From a virus, in IMG/VR virus record IMGVR_UViG_3300034103_000542, positions 1 through 29,945 of that record: DNA of 29,945 nucleotides; one strand, written 5' to 3'. Both the position numbers and the translations under genes were made by a program. Under the pieces are notes generated by a model. That model ran no database searches. It saw nothing but the letters and a program-made list of their open reading frames with translations, and had not been told where the DNA came from. The first letter of the stretch is position 1; the number at the start of each line of letters is the position of its first letter. Positions 25,750-29,945 of the stretch are shown here, in pieces.

Positions 25750-25757
25750 TATTTATA
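25750..25757 (-). promoter_or_regulatory. late promoter TATAAATA before gp25
   Basis: An exact TATAAATA on the minus strand two bases after the TAG stop of the 80-residue gene and 20 bases before the gp25 ATG. It should drive gp25, gp6 and the giant gene as the first late segment. Confidence 0.8.
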
Positions 25758-26432: not shown

Positions 26433-26440
26433 TATTTATT
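26433..26440 (-). promoter_or_regulatory. possible late promoter AATAAATA before speD
   Basis: The minus strand reads AATAAATA, one base away from TATAAATA. It covers the TAA stop of the 211-residue gene and lies about 36 bases before the speD ATG. The position over a stop codon is like the three exact late promoters, but the region is AT-rich and a chance match is possible. Confidence 0.3.
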
Positions 26441-27071
26441 TTGATTCTAAATCGGTAATTTGGTACATATAGTGATCAGATGTCTCAAATTTTCTCTTAT
26501 TTTCAACTGAATAGACCGTTAAATCAATTTCATAACCTGGATTTTTGCCAATTCGGTTGAATGTCCAGGCATTATCATACCAAACAATGCGATTATTTGG
26601 ATATGCGTAGTAATTTCCTGTTTCTACTTTAAATAAATGAGCACATTTATGCTCTGGAGTCTCTGAAAAGTTAAGATCTGGGACACCTTTGTTCTCCCAG
26701 GACCAGTCAAGAGTGAACATGTAGGATCCCACGACCTTTTTTCCATCGGGACGAATTAATTCTGCCTGTAATCCAGCGAGACGAGCACGTCTTTGAACGT
26801 CAATGTATGGGGAAAAGCAATCCCAATACATAATGTCCTCTAAAGGTTCAATCGGTGCGTCTGGTTTCCAGCAAAAAGCGTGAAGTGGCCTGCGAGTCCA
26901 ATTCACACCGTTTTCTAAAAATGCCTCAAACAGAGGAACTCTTTTTTCAATGCTCGCAACAGAATGAACATCACATTTGGTTACTTCACCATGTCCCATT
27001 TTATGGTTAAAAAGGAATTCATTACGAATATAACAGGACCAATCTGGAAGACTATGGTTTAAGTAAGCCAT
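26436..27071 (-). CDS. unknown protein (211 aa), probably conserved in cyanophages
   Basis: A 211-residue soluble protein with no family I can name. It is rich in Trp and Tyr (for example W-K-P-D-A-P, M-Y-W-D-C-F-S-P-Y, S-Y-M-F-T-L-D-W-S-W-E-N-K-G and R-I-V-W-Y-D-N-A-W-T-F-N). A central D-V-Q-R-R-A-R-L-A-G-L-Q-A-E-L segment may be helical and the rest looks beta-rich, so a compact enzyme-like or lectin-like fold is possible. There is no signal peptide or membrane segment. The start follows the 51-residue gene by two bases with AAGG upstream, and its stop overlaps a possible late promoter for speD. Its place with a glycosyltransferase-like gene might suggest sugar or surface work, but that is only context. 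Confidence 0.75.
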   Translation of the reverse strand: MAYLNHSLPDWSCYIRNEFLFNHKMGHGEVTKCDVHSVASIEKRVPLFEAFLENGVNWTRRPLHAFCWKPDAPIEPLEDIMYWDCFSPYIDVQRRARLAGLQAELIRPDGKKVVGSYMFTLDWSWENKGVPDLNFSETPEHKCAHLFKVETGNYYAYPNNRIVWYDNAWTFNRIGKNPGYEIDLTVYSVENKRKFETSDHYMYQITDLESK

Positions 27072-27073
27072 GT

Positions 27074-27229
27074 TTAACCTTTACCTTGACCCCTATACTT
27101 TTTACGAGCATTATTACGAGACGAAGCGGCATACTTGGTTCCTGCACCGCTTCCCTGACGAGACTTTTTAGGGGTCCCAGGCATATAAGAGGAGTTCTTA
27201 TTCAGACCGACTTTTGCTTTTGCTGCCAT
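27074..27229 (-). CDS. very small basic protein (51 aa), K/R/S/G-rich
   Basis: A 51-residue protein starting M-A-A-K-A-K-V-G-L-N-K-N and ending K-K-Y-R-G-Q-G-K-G. It is strongly basic, with short segments such as T-P-K-K-S-R-Q-G and A-R-K-K-Y, and no hydrophobic core, so it is probably unstructured alone and may bind nucleic acid. GGAG lies 9 bases before the ATG. The first 28 bases overlap the end of the 64-residue gene in another frame, and the stop is two bases before the 211-residue gene. I recall similar tiny basic proteins in this position in other cyanophages, without a known role. The coordinated spacing supports it as a real gene. Confidence 0.7.
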   Translation of the reverse strand: MAAKAKVGLNKNSSYMPGTPKKSRQGSGAGTKYAASSRNNARKKYRGQGKG

Positions 27230-27396
27230 ACATTATTCTCCAATAAAATTTCAGTTTCAATATCTTCAGGATTTGGAGAACCTGTCTGATAAAATTCAAT
27301 CGACAGATCCTCCATTACATTGAAATATTCTTCTTCTGTAAGACTTGAATAAATTCTTCTTCCCTTACAGAGAATATTATATCGTTCGTTAGCCAT
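27202..27396 (-). CDS. small acidic protein (64 aa), conserved cyanophage type
   Basis: From the ATG at 27396 this is 64 residues: M-A-N-E-R-Y-N-I-L-C-K-G-R, then L-T-E-E-E-Y-F-N-V-M-E-D-L and E-F-Y-Q-T-G-S-P-N-P-E-D-I. The ATG overlaps the stop of the glycosyltransferase-like gene (TGATG), so translation is probably coupled. A GTG at 27444 would add 16 residues inside the upstream gene and was not chosen. The pattern E-E-Y-F-x-x-M-E-D-L-x-I-E-F-Y-Q-T-G is one I recall from several T4-like cyanophages as a hypothetical protein. It is likely helical and acidic. It may partner the upstream enzyme, but no function is shown. Confidence 0.75.
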   Translation of the reverse strand: MANERYNILCKGRRIYSSLTEEEYFNVMEDLSIEFYQTGSPNPEDIETEILLENNVWQQKQKSV

Positions 27397-28148
27397 CAAA
27401 TGATTCTTGTCTTCTCGTGACCAACTCTGATACGAGGATCGCACCAGATTTCAAAACCTGCTTCCTTTGCATCCAAACAGAATGATACGTCTTCTCCACA
27501 CATATCCTGTACTTCACCAGATTCAAAGACTTGCATCTTTGGAGCAAACCAAGGATACTTCATCTCTGAGTGTTCAAAGACTCCGTTCTTAATCAACAAC
27601 CAACCAAATCCAGCATAATCAACAGTGAATGGTTTCCGACGCTTTGAGATACTCTCAATGGTTTCGTGATTCATAACACCACCATTGTTACGGAAATCAT
27701 CCTCTTCCATCCAGTGTGCTACAGAGGTTGTTCTACCATCCTCTGTACAATACCATCCAGAAGCAATGTCTTGATCCATCAGAACAAGTTGCCAGAACTT
27801 TTCAGTATTGAAAACAATATCACTATCAATCCATAACTGCCAATCATACTTCAGTTTACCATCCCAGGGAATCTGATCAGGTCCACGAAGTACATTTGCT
27901 CCAAGACACTTGCAACGGGCAAAGTTCACCATTGAAGAATAATCTTGTGAGATTTGGATACTGGCGCCAGCCTGCACCAAATCAAAACAAAGTTGAACAA
28001 AATTCTTTAAGTAAGTATATGAGACCCCTCTTCCAGGTAGACAGAATACAACTGTTTTGCCCTTTACCATCTCACGGGCCAAGTTGTAATCCCATTCAGG
28101 TTCTGAAGCGGTCGGAGTCTTTGCTTTTACGGTAAATCCTTTAGCCAT
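27396..28148 (-). CDS. glycosyltransferase-like protein, GT-A fold (250 aa)
   Basis: Probably a nucleotide-sugar-using transferase. After an N-terminal segment, a T-V-V-F-C-L-P-G-R-G strand-loop (residues 32-41) is followed by a W-I-D-S-D-I-V-F motif with D-S-D at 108-110. That is the DxD-type metal and sugar-nucleotide site of GT-A enzymes. Then come V-D-Y-A-G-F-G-W-L-L-I-K (177-188), G-E-D (218-220, the likely catalytic acid region with V-S-F-C), and a C-terminal D-P-R-I-R-V-G-H (237-244) with a conserved His. This order matches phage and bacterial GT2-like proteins. The acceptor is unknown; host or virion surface or phage DNA are possible. It has a near-consensus sigma-70 promoter and no Shine-Dalgarno, and it overlaps the 64-residue gene by one base. 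Confidence 0.75.
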   Translation of the reverse strand: MAKGFTVKAKTPTASEPEWDYNLAREMVKGKTVVFCLPGRGVSYTYLKNFVQLCFDLVQAGASIQISQDYSSMVNFARCKCLGANVLRGPDQIPWDGKLKYDWQLWIDSDIVFNTEKFWQLVLMDQDIASGWYCTEDGRTTSVAHWMEEDDFRNNGGVMNHETIESISKRRKPFTVDYAGFGWLLIKNGVFEHSEMKYPWFAPKMQVFESGEVQDMCGEDVSFCLDAKEAGFEIWCDPRIRVGHEKTRII

Positions 28149-28171
28149 AATAGAATGCGTTTACATCAATG

Positions 28172-28200
28172 ATCATACAGTATTATATAGTGAATGTCAA
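28172..28200 (-). promoter_or_regulatory. sigma-70-type promoter for the glycosyltransferase-like gene
   Basis: The minus strand has TTGACA (28200-28195), a 17-base spacer, and TATGAT (28177-28172), which match 6 of 6 and 5 of 6 consensus bases. Transcription would start near 28165, leaving about 17 bases before the ATG. The -35 hexamer lies over the TGA stop of the 58-residue gene. This suggests host RNA polymerase and early expression. Confidence 0.7.
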
Positions 28201-28373
28201 TCGCTGTCCTTTTCGGTAATCACTAAATCTCCGCCCTCAATTGACAAACGGACCTCTGTGTCTTCATACCAAGAAAGATCGTTTGCAATCCATTCAGGAA
28301 TCACAATATAATACTCACCAGTAATTGGATCGACCTGTACGAGTTGAAAATTTTCTCCGGAATTTTTTTTCAT
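28197..28373 (-). CDS. AbrB/SpoVT-like small protein (58 aa)
   Basis: A 58-residue protein. It has Q-L-V-Q-V-D-P-I-T-G-E-Y-Y-I-V-I-P-E-W-I-A (about residues 10-30), then V-R-L-S-I-E-G-G-D-L-V-I-T-E. This resembles the swapped-hairpin AbrB/SpoVT fold, in which a D-x-x-G-x-I-x-I-P stretch is followed by a V-x-x-x-x-x-x-x-x-L-x-I strand. The fit is partial, and I recall similar proteins in cyanophages annotated as hypothetical. If it folds that way it could be a small DNA-binding regulator or an antitoxin without a toxin partner (the neighbouring gene is not a toxin). A TATAAATC late-like box lies 26 bases upstream, and no Shine-Dalgarno is seen. Confidence 0.65.
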   Translation of the reverse strand: MKKNSGENFQLVQVDPITGEYYIVIPEWIANDLSWYEDTEVRLSIEGGDLVITEKDSD

Positions 28374-28399
28374 TTCAGGTATATGAATCTTCTTTTTCA

Positions 28400-28407
28400 G
28401 ATTTATA
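28400..28407 (-). promoter_or_regulatory. possible late promoter TATAAATC before the AbrB-like gene
   Basis: Minus strand TATAAATC differs from TATAAATA in the last base and lies 26 bases before the ATG at 28373, the same spacing as the exact late promoter before the 113-residue gene. It may be a weaker late promoter. Confidence 0.35.
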
Positions 28408-28477
28408 TAGCACTTTATATTTTACTCGCGTCCGTAACACTTTGTAGGTTAGGGGGACCCATGGTTTTTATATAACG

Positions 28478-28490
28478 GGGGCGGCGCCCC
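28478..28490 (-). promoter_or_regulatory. GC-rich hairpin
   Basis: GGGGC and GCCCC pair around a three-base loop. No T-run follows on either strand, so it is not a standard terminator. It could stop, pause or protect RNA ends between two gene blocks. Confidence 0.4.
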
Positions 28491-28538
28491 GAACGCAACG
28501 GGACGGGGGCACTGCCAGATCACGAACGAATGTTATAC

Positions 28539-28736
28539 CTAACCACGCCCTTCGTAGTTAGTATGAAGACCCGCAAGTTCCCACGCAGGGTAACCATCAA
28601 TGCCCGCACGATTGAGTGAACGACCGAACGTATCATCACGGTGAGAGTTAAGTTGCGAACGACCCTTTGCAACGTTGGTGCTCACCCATACGGTCTGACG
28701 GGTGTTAAGATCGGATGCGATGTTGTAGAGTGCCAT
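28539..28736 (-). CDS. unknown small protein (65 aa)
   Basis: A 65-residue polar protein of unknown function, beginning M-A-L-Y-N-I-A-S-D-L-N-T-R-Q-T-V-W-V-S-T-N-V. It then has R-S-Q-L-N-S-H-R-D-D-T-F-G-R-S-L-N-R and ends Y-P-A-W-E-L-A-G-L-H-T-N-Y-E-G-R-G. It has many Asn, Arg and Asp and no membrane segment or cysteine. The reading frame is clean, with the ATG at 28736, though the usual Shine-Dalgarno is absent (a pyrimidine tract TTCCTC precedes it). GC content is higher than in the structural cluster. Its place in a row of small genes with the same composition supports it as a real gene. Transfer from another source is possible, but nothing in the protein names a family. Confidence 0.55.
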   Translation of the reverse strand: MALYNIASDLNTRQTVWVSTNVAKGRSQLNSHRDDTFGRSLNRAGIDGYPAWELAGLHTNYEGRG

Positions 28737-28772
28737 GATAACGAATGAGGAATGTGTGTGGTTTAGTGTAAC

Positions 28773-29033
28773 TCAGTCACGGGTAGAATCGAACACCGAA
28801 TAGAAACAATCCCATGCCCAAGTGTCGGCAACGAATGTATCAATGCCGCACTGATCACAGACCCATTCGTAGGCACTGTCACAGTCTGCATTAGTCTCAA
28901 CCACGAAGTTATAGAGAGAAGCAATAGCACCACGGAAGCAATCATTCTCCATTTCAGACACCCACCACTTGCCAGTTTCAGTGCTTTTGTTGATCATCTT
29001 GCCGTCGATGGAGAATGCTTTGATCACGGACAT
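28773..29033 (-). CDS. unknown small Cys/Trp-rich protein (86 aa)
   Basis: An 86-residue acidic protein with four cysteines (one at about residue 32, then 51, 59 and 62) and five tryptophans. It begins M-S-V-I-K-A-F-S-I-D-G-K and ends C-F-Y-S-V-F-D-S-T-R-D. A C-D-Q-C pair (residues 59-62) could bind metal, with another Cys at 51. It follows the terminator at 29070-29102, so it should have its own promoter in the 36 bases before it, though no clear one was found. Upstream, AAAGAAAAG is a weak purine stretch only. No family is recognised. The frame is compact, is free of internal stops and shares the composition of its neighbours, which supports coding. Confidence 0.55.
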   Translation of the reverse strand: MSVIKAFSIDGKMINKSTETGKWWVSEMENDCFRGAIASLYNFVVETNADCDSAYEWVCDQCGIDTFVADTWAWDCFYSVFDSTRD

Positions 29034-29069
29034 TTGAGTTGCTTTTCTTTGACTCTTTTAGTATTGCAT

Positions 29070-29102
29070 AAAAAAAGTGTCCACGGGGAGAATCGTGGAC
29101 AC
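29070..29102 (-). terminator. rho-independent terminator (minus strand)
   Basis: Nine-base perfect inverted repeat: GTGTCCACG (29077-29085) and CGTGGACAC (29094-29102) around an eight-base loop. On the minus strand a run of seven T follows (29076-29070). It ends transcription 11 bases after the stop of the 45-residue gene. Confidence 0.88.
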
Positions 29103-29113
29103 CTTATCAACTG

Positions 29114-29251
29114 TCACCAGATAACAGGATTGCCCTGCAGATCGGTTACAGTTCCCTGTTCATTGTCGGTTGCGATAGAGTCAAGAATCTGCAGAATTTG
29201 CGAACCATCTTTACCTTGACGAAGCAGAGAGATTGCGAGGTTGAGAGTCAT
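29114..29251 (-). CDS. small protein (45 aa), cyanophage small-gene family
   Basis: A 45-residue protein starting M-T-L-N-L-A-I-S-L-L-R-Q-G-K-D-G and including Q-I-L-Q-I-L-D-S-I, with the end N-P-V-I-W. The pattern M-T-L-N-x-A-x-x-L-L-R-Q-G, then I-L-x-I-L-D, is one I recall from short hypothetical proteins of marine cyanophages. It is likely helical and could help interact with a host protein or nucleic acid, but this is not shown. The strong terminator lies 11 bases after its stop. The upstream sequence is pyrimidine-rich (TTTTTCCTTC) without a Shine-Dalgarno. Confidence 0.6.
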   Translation of the reverse strand: MTLNLAISLLRQGKDGSQILQILDSIATDNEQGTVTDLQGNPVIW

Positions 29252-29268
29252 GAAATGAAGGAAAAAGA

Positions 29269-29376
29269 TTAACGAATGGCGGTGAGTTTGATGTCATCAC
29301 CAGGACAGAAGTTCAGTTCAGACGCATACCAGAGAAGAAGGGAATTGTGCCAAATTGTGCAGAGTGAAAGAACCAT
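29269..29376 (-). CDS. possible overlapping small ORF (35 aa)
   Basis: An ATG at 29376 opens a 35-codon frame that overlaps the last 64 bases of the 105-residue gene in another frame and ends at 29269. Its end (A-S-E-L-N-F-C-P-G-D-D-I-K-L-T-A-I-R) lies mostly outside the overlap and reads like a real protein tail. The start reads M-V-L-S-L-C-T-I-W-H. No Shine-Dalgarno is present. It could be a separate small gene translated after the 105-residue gene, or chance. Confidence 0.3.
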   Translation of the reverse strand: MVLSLCTIWHNSLLLWYASELNFCPGDDIKLTAIR

Positions 29377-29630
29377 TGAAAGTTCTTTTGAAACACACTC
29401 TCATCACCAATTCCGTGCTCACGCAGAATAGCATTGAGGCGCGATTTGGTGGTGTTAGATTGATGCCCACCATCGAACAATTCGATCCAGGTTTCACCAA
29501 TGCGAGCGATCAGATTGCCATGGAGAAACACATCAGAAACGTTCGAACATGCAACGACTTCGGTGTTATCAAGTTTGAAATCTTTGCCAGCAGTGATAGC
29601 GGCATTCATCAGACGTTCGATCTTACGCAT
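29313..29630 (-). CDS. unknown small protein (105 aa), phage family
   Basis: From the ATG at 29630 this is 105 residues: M-R-K-I-E-R-L-M-N-A-A-I, a beta segment V-F-L-H-G-N-L-I-A-R-I-G, then S-N-T-T-K-S-R-L-N-A-I-L-R-E-H-G, F-Q-K-N-F-Q-W-F and an end with G-M-R-L-N. The run of L-H-G-N-L-I-A, then T-T-K-S-R-L-N-A-I-L, then Q-K-x-F-x-W is a pattern I recall from hypothetical proteins of marine phages. The family has no function known to me. A TTG at 29651 would add 7 residues but has no better ribosome site. CCTCC, not GGAGG, precedes the ATG. Its composition matches the GC-richer block. Confidence 0.65.
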   Translation of the reverse strand: MRKIERLMNAAITAGKDFKLDNTEVVACSNVSDVFLHGNLIARIGETWIELFDGGHQSNTTKSRLNAILREHGIGDESVFQKNFQWFFHSAQFGTIPFFSGMRLN

Positions 29631-29655
29631 GGGAGGAATTCGTCTCAACAAAGGT

Positions 29656-29684
29656 AGTATGGATCAAATCAGGGGACTTTGCAA
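29656..29684 (-). promoter_or_regulatory. possible sigma-70-type promoter before the 105-residue gene
   Basis: Minus strand TTGCAA (29684-29679), 17-base spacer, CATACT (29661-29656). Four of six bases match in each hexamer, and the ATG is 25 bases further. It fits an early host-type promoter but is only moderate evidence. Confidence 0.35.
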
Positions 29685-29691
29685 GGGGGGT

Positions 29692-29715
29692 TGTGCCACT
29701 TGTTCAACTGGCACA
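29692..29715 (-). promoter_or_regulatory. hairpin at the end of the right-edge gene
   Basis: TGTGCCA (29692-29698) and TGGCACA (29709-29715) pair across a stem of 7 bases, and the inner TTG and CAA could extend it. It spans the TGA stop at 29704-29706. On the minus strand it is followed by a C run and not T, so termination would not be of the standard type. Confidence 0.4.
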
Positions 29716-29945
29716 CTGAAAGCGCCCAGCGTTGAAGTTATGATACGCAAAGACCTCACGATTGACCAGTTTGAACATACCAAACTCATTGGTCATCACA
29801 TAACCCTCTGCATCAATCCTGTTGTATCCGATATAAGCAGCAGGACCCATGTTGCGGCACAGGAAGAGACAATCATCTTTGATCGACTTCACCAATGCCC
29901 ACAAACGAATCAGGTTAGGATCACAATCAAAGTCTTCTGCAACGA
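29704..29945 (-). CDS. unknown protein, partial at right edge (about 80 aa visible)
   Basis: The frame is open from the stop at 29704 to the right edge of the window and beyond. The only initiator near the edge would be a TTG at 29904, but in-frame codons before it read V-A-E-D-F-D-C-D-P-N-L-I-R, which look like real protein, so the true start lies outside. Visible later segments are L-W-A-L-V-K-S-I-K-D-D, Y-I-G-Y-N-R-I-D-A-E-G-Y-V-M and F-K-L-V-N-R-E-V-F-A-Y-H-N-F-N-A-G-R-F-Q-C-A-S. It looks like a compact alpha/beta domain of about 80 residues or the end of a longer protein. No family is recognised. A hairpin spans its stop codon. Confidence 0.6.
   Translation of the reverse strand, partial: VAEDFDCDPNLIRLWALVKSIKDDCLFLCRNMGPAAYIGYNRIDAEGYVMTNEFGMFKLVNREVFAYHNFNAGRFQCAS

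Follow-up and report, generated by a model that had tools for sequence, protein, structure and literature searches.

The DNA analysed here (the window) is a virus fragment of 29,945 bases from a T4-like cyanophage, and the closest annotated isolate for the region of interest is Synechococcus phage S-SRM01. On its minus strand a gene for a glycosyltransferase-like protein (the transferase gene) is preceded by a 58-residue gene and a promoter-like sequence, and is followed by three smaller genes (Table 1). A strong hairpin of 12 pairs with a T-run, resembling an intrinsic terminator, lies at 29105-29074 (minus strand), after a 45-residue gene and 5' of this cluster. The GC-rich stretch at 28440-28540 folds no better than its shuffles (z -0.58).

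Table 1. Features of the transferase locus, in the order in which the minus strand is read.
Feature	Positions	Strand	Basis or remark
58-residue gene upstream of the transferase gene, phrog_661	28197..28373	-	MazE/AbrB-like, sub-threshold, E 0.13
-35 hexamer TTGACA	28195..28200	-	TTGAC near-invariant in aligned relatives
Spacer element TANATA (TATATA in the window)	28184..28189	-	ends 6 bases 5' of the -10 hexamer
-10 hexamer TATGAT	28172..28177	-	pattern scan and alignment of relatives
Presumed leader, no Shine-Dalgarno motif	28149..28164	-	putative start G28164, from conserved GTAA
Glycosyltransferase gene, 250 residues, phrog_1574 / T4-GC 102, predicted GT-A fold	27396..28148	-	profile and model
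64-residue gene, phrog_3252	27202..27396	-	ATG at 27396, TGATG overlap with the transferase stop
51-residue gene for a small basic protein, phrog_516	27074..27229	-	begins inside the 64-residue gene
211-residue gene, phrog_3704	26436..27071	-	directly after the 51-residue gene; the final gene ahead of the speD late-type motif
Late-type motif AATAAATA before speD	26433..26440	-	motif scan
Late promoter motif TATAAATA of gp25 (baseplate wedge)	25750..25757	-	motif scan

The two hexamers in front of the transferase gene are 17 bases apart and agree with the consensus at 11 of 12 positions, which is the arrangement of a sigma-70-type promoter (TTGACA and a TATAAT-like hexamer separated by 16-18 bases). 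The strict pattern TTGAC-N17..19-TANRAT has no other site on the minus strand of the 29,945 bases and has one on the plus strand. Mononucleotide shuffles of 110-base upstream regions reach at least 11/12 in 0.5% of cases and at least 10/12 in 4.4%. The TTGACA hexamer shares bases with the TGA stop codon of the 58-residue gene (GAT TGA CA), and it could be argued that this overlap and an AT-rich spacer mimic a promoter by chance, the more so as a 20-kb scan returned 98 promoter-like sites against a shuffle mean of 85 per scan, which makes weaker sites uninformative; the transferase promoter is one of two sites in that scan that score 11/12. Three other readings of the same bases were rejected. 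No plus-strand site around 28172-28200 is among the matches listed, as an antisense promoter behind the spacer motif would have it; a second, overlapping sigma-70 promoter, whose -10 would be TANATAAT, has a fitting -35 in the window (AGGACA) and one in L047 and L048, but none is conserved in the relatives' upstream columns; and an NtcA site (GTA-N8-TAC) is, by eye, a poor fit to the leader.

Relatives were taken from three IMG/VR scans (the best 80 of at least 600 matches in each) and from annotated phages, where 104 records have a match to the transferase, 102 of them covering at least 80%, and 19 isolates were used for comparison of loci. Among the matches listed, a match of at least 10/12 is found in 74 of the 83 non-redundant upstream regions of a first set (4.4% of shuffles) and in 153 of the 181 non-redundant relatives of the full set (3.6% of shuffles), and in 137 of these 181 it lies 20-26 bases 5' of the ATG, mostly 21-25, where 0.4% of shuffles have one. 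The strict pattern accounts for 135 of the 181, a second class for 15, and others make up the remaining 31 (again among the matches listed). In 55 aligned relatives each TTGAC column is kept in 54-55 (1.87-2.0 bits), the sixth base of the -35 hexamer is A in 34 (0.71 bits), the -10 columns hold 1.27-2.0 bits, and 17 of 20 upstream columns hold less than 0.5 bits. The gene 5' of the transferase gene differs from isolate to isolate among the 19: the 58-residue gene has a match in 96 of 227 relatives (among the matches listed), within 100 bases of the transferase gene in 70, and other genes occupy its place in several isolates. The hexamers are therefore kept although the upstream genes change, which refutes the chance reading and leaves it a practically negligible probability. 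Judged from these sequences, the promoter is real, and its earlier description as a near-perfect sigma-70 promoter on the minus strand was well founded.

A match of at least 10/12 is absent from 28 of the 181 relatives (among the matches listed), including one with a mis-set start and three in which the promoter lies beyond an inserted ORF. Mis-set starts were scored as misses in L032 (first set) and L086 (a separate scan); among the 31 others, S-SKS1 is such a case, with its promoter visible in the first-set scan, and five have TTGACA together with TAAACT or TATACT. In L062, L070 and L144 the promoter with its spacer element (the composite promoter, see below) lies 531-536 bases 5' of the transferase gene, before an ORF resembling an HNH endonuclease. 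Such ORFs, of about 160-171 residues from stop to stop, are found directly 5' of the transferase gene at four loci (L062:3513-3992, L070:2339-2830, L144:675-1187 and L051:1064-1561), and two of the four scanned reach the Pfam cutoff. At three of these loci (not L051) the composite promoter is found where the ORF begins, which looks like an insertion of the ORF at the leader. The promoter is absent in 7 of 7 S-TIM5-type relatives, and before the transferase gene of S-CAM7, ACG-2014f and B23. The second class is a subclade of 15 members (L099, L113, L116, L118, L119, L120, L127, L128, L141, L146, L147, L148, L157, L170 and L174) that has TTGCA[ACT]-N17-TANRAT instead, with [GT]GG before the -10 hexamer in 14 of the 15 and TAAATA upstream, also in 14 of the 15 (among the matches listed); in this subclade the transferase gene may, by its motifs, be transcribed late as well.

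The promoter had also been set apart from the late promoters of the structural neighbours, and the relatives bear this out: of 71 non-redundant relatives, 70 have TAAATA within the 100 bases upstream of gp25 and none has the strict sigma-70 pattern there. A T4-type late promoter consists of (N)ATAAATA about 25-40 bases upstream, with no -35, and TAAATA does not occur on the minus strand of the window from 26439 to 29945. Like the (T)ATAAATA promoter of gp25, the transferase promoter is AT-rich, and its spacer element differs from the late core at a single base; unlike it, the transferase promoter has a -35 hexamer, and a late promoter at the transferase gene was rejected for most relatives, in which the late core is absent from this place. 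In P-SSM2, 27 late genes were compared with 31 genes of replication or metabolism: TAAATA occurs within 100 bases of 15 of the former and 5 of the latter, and a strong sigma-70 match at 1 and 5, respectively; the two promoter classes differ in this genome, but by themselves they do not separate timing sharply. The 13 TTGAC-N18-TATRAT sites of P-SSM2 include sites before gp32, the gp45 operon, gp61, psbA, the transferase gene and unknown genes, and one inside nrdA; none lies before a named virion gene. According to excerpts of PMC2984593, cyanomyoviruses are believed to rely on the unmodified sigma-70 RNA polymerase of the host for their early genes, and NATAAATA marks their late promoters; no sigma-70 motif turned up 5' of the early genes of S-RSM4, and cyanomyoviruses are reported to be without the T4 factors by which the polymerase of the host is altered for early and middle transcription.

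With transcription presumed to begin near 28164 and the ATG at 28148, the leader would measure about 16-17 bases, and in the window it contains none of GGAG, AGGA, GAGG, GGAA, AAGG or GGGA. The preliminary description had the length (about 17 bases) and the missing Shine-Dalgarno motif right, but not the special meaning that it attached to them, as such a motif is found at only 4 of the 12 gene starts checked in the region (the 8 without one include late gp25). By motif, 12 of the 153 promoter-bearing relatives (among the matches listed) have one. A leader of this kind is ordinary in the region and carries no information. Directly after the -10 hexamer, the leaders of relatives (for example L083 and L016) have a conserved G-T-A-A that opens the presumed transcript, often within a short palindrome (GTAATTAC, AAGTAACGTTACTT), possibly an operator or a start-site preference.

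The spacer between the hexamers is itself patterned. TANATA occurs in the spacer of 127 of the 153 promoters (9.1 on average over 300 spacer shuffles, and at most 17), and its end is 6 bases from the -10 hexamer in 101 of the 127; its distance from the -35 hexamer is more variable (5 in 81, 6 in 28), so that the element is placed relative to the -10 hexamer (all counts among the matches listed). In 19 whole phage genomes the pattern TTGACN{4,8}TANATAN{4,8}TATRAT has 12 matches, 10 of them at the transferase gene, and the reversed pattern has 2. TTGAC-N18-TATRAT has 152 sites in 14 of these genomes, and 8 of the 9 at the transferase gene are composite, compared with 1 of the 143 remaining sites when the lists are compared. 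A looser composite pattern gave 10 matches in Syn9, S-PM2 and P-HM2 together, against 5 for the reversed control; two of the 10 fit the pattern well, namely a site in front of Syn9 gp151 and another at S-PM2 117302, with TAAATA in its spacer. By these pattern searches the TANATA composite appears nearly private to the transferase gene, and composite-like promoters also exist in phages without the transferase (Syn9, S-PM2). The Syn9 site (L269, 1073-1101) reads TTGAC..TATATA..TATAAT, and gp151 is a gene of unknown function near cobS.

Sigma-70 early promoters are already known in cyanophages, and the composite with TANATA would be the new element. Those of S-PM2 and Syn9 share the sigma-70-like motif, not NATAAATA (PMC2984593, excerpts), with the promoter of the window, to which TANATA, 6 bases 5' of the -10 hexamer, is added as a feature near-private to one gene per genome. 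The cyanophage literature that we searched, the Syn9 transcriptome not being covered, yielded no description of the composite promoter, and we make no claim that it is unpublished. Lying at about -24 to -19, TANATA most likely tunes the strength or timing of this one promoter, through DNA flexibility or a bound regulator. A more specific proposal, which we hold only tentatively, is that it adds a third element to the promoter, in the form of an operator or regulator site read by a phage or host protein, that defines a one-gene regulon across many Kyanoviridae; if true, this regulon would be set apart from the general early and late programmes, and the dose or timing of the enzyme would be critical. 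Alternatively, TANATA could be a T4-type late promoter, weakened and lying within the sigma-70 one, the gene being made early and again late. Its distance of one base from the late core TAAATA, its exact identity with that core in 10 of the 127 elements (including those of P-TIM68 and DSL-LC02) and the TAAATA found upstream in 14 of the 15 members of one subclade all suit such dual timing (element and subclade counts among the matches listed), and for RB49 and S-PM2 it has been proposed that middle genes have early and late promoters that overlap (PMC2984593, excerpts). However, the third base of the element is T in 59, C in 33, G in 25 and A in 10 of the 127 (among the matches listed), whereas TAAATA is intact in 70 of 71 gp25 promoters, so the base that would complete the late core is mostly avoided; in addition, the fixed gap of 6 bases to the -10 hexamer (101 of 127, among the matches listed) suggests action together with the sigma-70 promoter. 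We consider dual timing unlikely, and prefer a TANATA element that tunes the sigma-70 promoter.

Early expression of the transferase gene is the best inference from its promoter class. The host RNA polymerase, carrying its main sigma factor of the RpoD/sigma-70 type, would start the gene early, without phage factors, and this would give the transferase its own early start at the border between a variable region of small genes and the late baseplate genes. We found no transcript or protein time course of the transferase gene in the cyanophage literature, a search that did not cover the Syn9 transcriptome, and the excerpts of PMC3037559, PMC10976474, PMC5082946 and PMC5931967 contain no mention of the gene; for P-SSM2, which carries the transferase, a time course has reportedly been characterised (PMC7238727, excerpt). 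The transcript is expected to read into the 64-, 51- and 211-residue genes, because the next late-type motif on the strand precedes speD. The overlaps that had been taken to couple the 64- and 51-residue genes to the transferase gene are as claimed. In 145 of the 236 relatives whose sequence extends far enough, a match to the 64-residue gene lies no more than 100 nt from the transferase gene; matches to the 51-residue gene are present in 225 of the 236, at a median distance of 169 and within 100 bases in 40 (all among the matches listed). The 51-residue gene is nevertheless not tied to the transferase: at E 1e-3 it matches 398 phage records, 194 of them with a coverage of at least 80%, and it is present in Syn9, S-PM2 and P-HM2, three cyanophages on which work has been published and from which the transferase is absent (three positive controls matched). 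By its distribution it is an independent, general cyanophage gene and not the transferase's alone. We therefore rejected the 51-residue protein as a dedicated partner or acceptor of the enzyme, on account of these 398 records and its presence in phages without the enzyme; likewise, the promoter is not taken to belong to the 51-residue gene, since no composite is found within 1,500 bases upstream of it in Syn9, S-PM2 or P-HM2.

The transferase itself matches the phrog_1574 profile over residues 19-250 (E 5.6e-123), a family to which PHROGs assigns no function, and the copy in P-SSM2, PSSM2_106, carries the GenBank note T4-GC 102; the protein is a member of this family, and no difference from it was seen. 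A second, weak PHROGs match is to a glycosyltransferase family (E 2e-6). No Pfam family scored above its cutoff, either with the window protein or with four relatives; NCBIfam, searched with the window protein, gave no match, and a sequence search against solved structures gave no credible one. An AlphaFold2 model was built from 22 sequences (pLDDT 82.3, pTM 0.82). VIA-align matched it to mimivirus R699 (Z 15.8, rmsd 3.6, 189 aligned), human LH3 (Z 15.4), STIV A197 (Z 15.3, rmsd 2.7, 162 aligned of 191 residues, 25% identity), yeast Mnn9 (Z 14.1) and COLGALT1 (Z 13.3). Foldseek against solved structures returned glycosyltransferases at TM about 0.4-0.55 (Mnn9 E 1.4e-7, TM about 0.5), and against predicted viral proteins TM values up to 0.63. 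D108-x-D110 (DxD), E219-D220 and H244 are invariant in the 22 sequences, and we take their roles to be those known in GT-A enzymes, a metal-binding DxD and downstream acidic and histidine residues. The model thus agrees with the earlier view of a glycosyltransferase-like product, and it places the protein clearly in the GT-A glycosyltransferase class, no specific enzyme being matched. The enzyme is predicted to be soluble and metal-dependent, and probably active, as the residues that an active GT-A enzyme should have are present. STIV A197 (PDB 2c0n), from an archaeal virus and presumably a glycosyltransferase, has the GT-A fold in common with it. R699, LH3 and COLGALT1 share the GT-A domain (Z 13-16) at 11-14% identity; these enzymes act on collagen, and no collagen substrate is known for the phage of the window.

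It had been argued that an early enzyme would act on the host surface or on phage DNA rather than on a virion part. This argument fails, because an early enzyme can act on virion proteins made late, and because the nearest folds include protein and collagen glycosyltransferases as well as glycan-building ones; the promoter class does not decide between surface, DNA and virion. Our first choice of acceptor, perhaps, is a host glycan or host protein, to which the GT-A enzyme, with an expression that would precede that of the virion genes and be separate from it, would add a sugar early in infection; this is the weakest step of the proposal. Second comes a modification of virion proteins, of the adjoining baseplate or of fibres, by an enzyme simply made ahead. 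The transferase gene lies just upstream of the baseplate genes gp25, gp6 and gp7 in 17 of the 19 isolates, the collagen glycosyltransferases are among the nearest folds, and collagen-like repeats adjoin the gene in S-CAM7 and occur elsewhere in P-SSM2. Yet the gene has a sigma-70 promoter separate from the late one of gp25, collagen-like repeats are present in only 2 of the 260 sequences scanned (among the matches listed), and in S-TIM5 and S-CAM7 the transferase gene does not adjoin an annotated gp25; a virion target is, on balance, rather doubtful. Genes for 2OG-Fe(II) or phytanoyl oxygenases are seen by eye near the transferase gene in 4 of the 19 isolates (L083, L090, L096 and L099). A hydroxylase and transferase acting together on collagen-like fibres was rejected and the proximity taken as chance, P-SSM2 alone having about ten such genes annotated. 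Third, T4 glucosylates its DNA, and the early or middle timing suggested by the promoter class would fit an enzyme of that kind. The alpha and beta DNA glucosyltransferases of T4 are, however, GT-B enzymes, whereas the modelled fold is GT-A and the matches of the model are GT-A enzymes; the absence of GT-B from the match list being no proof in itself, we regard a DNA target as very unlikely, and retain a host acceptor as the first choice.

Taken as a whole, the proposal of a host sigma-70 promoter with an early start, read-through into the following genes, tuning by TANATA and a GT-A enzyme, with a host acceptor as its weakest step, has, in our estimate, a probability of about 0.72. With it, an anonymous and widespread cyanophage gene (104 annotated records, at least 600 matches per IMG/VR scan) becomes a testable predicted early enzyme with a located promoter. 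The near-private composite promoter offers a handle on how cyanophages, reported to be without MotA and AsiA (PMC2984593, excerpts), time single genes. Should the enzyme change the surface of the host, this would have a bearing on superinfection and on host resistance in Synechococcus and Prochlorococcus.
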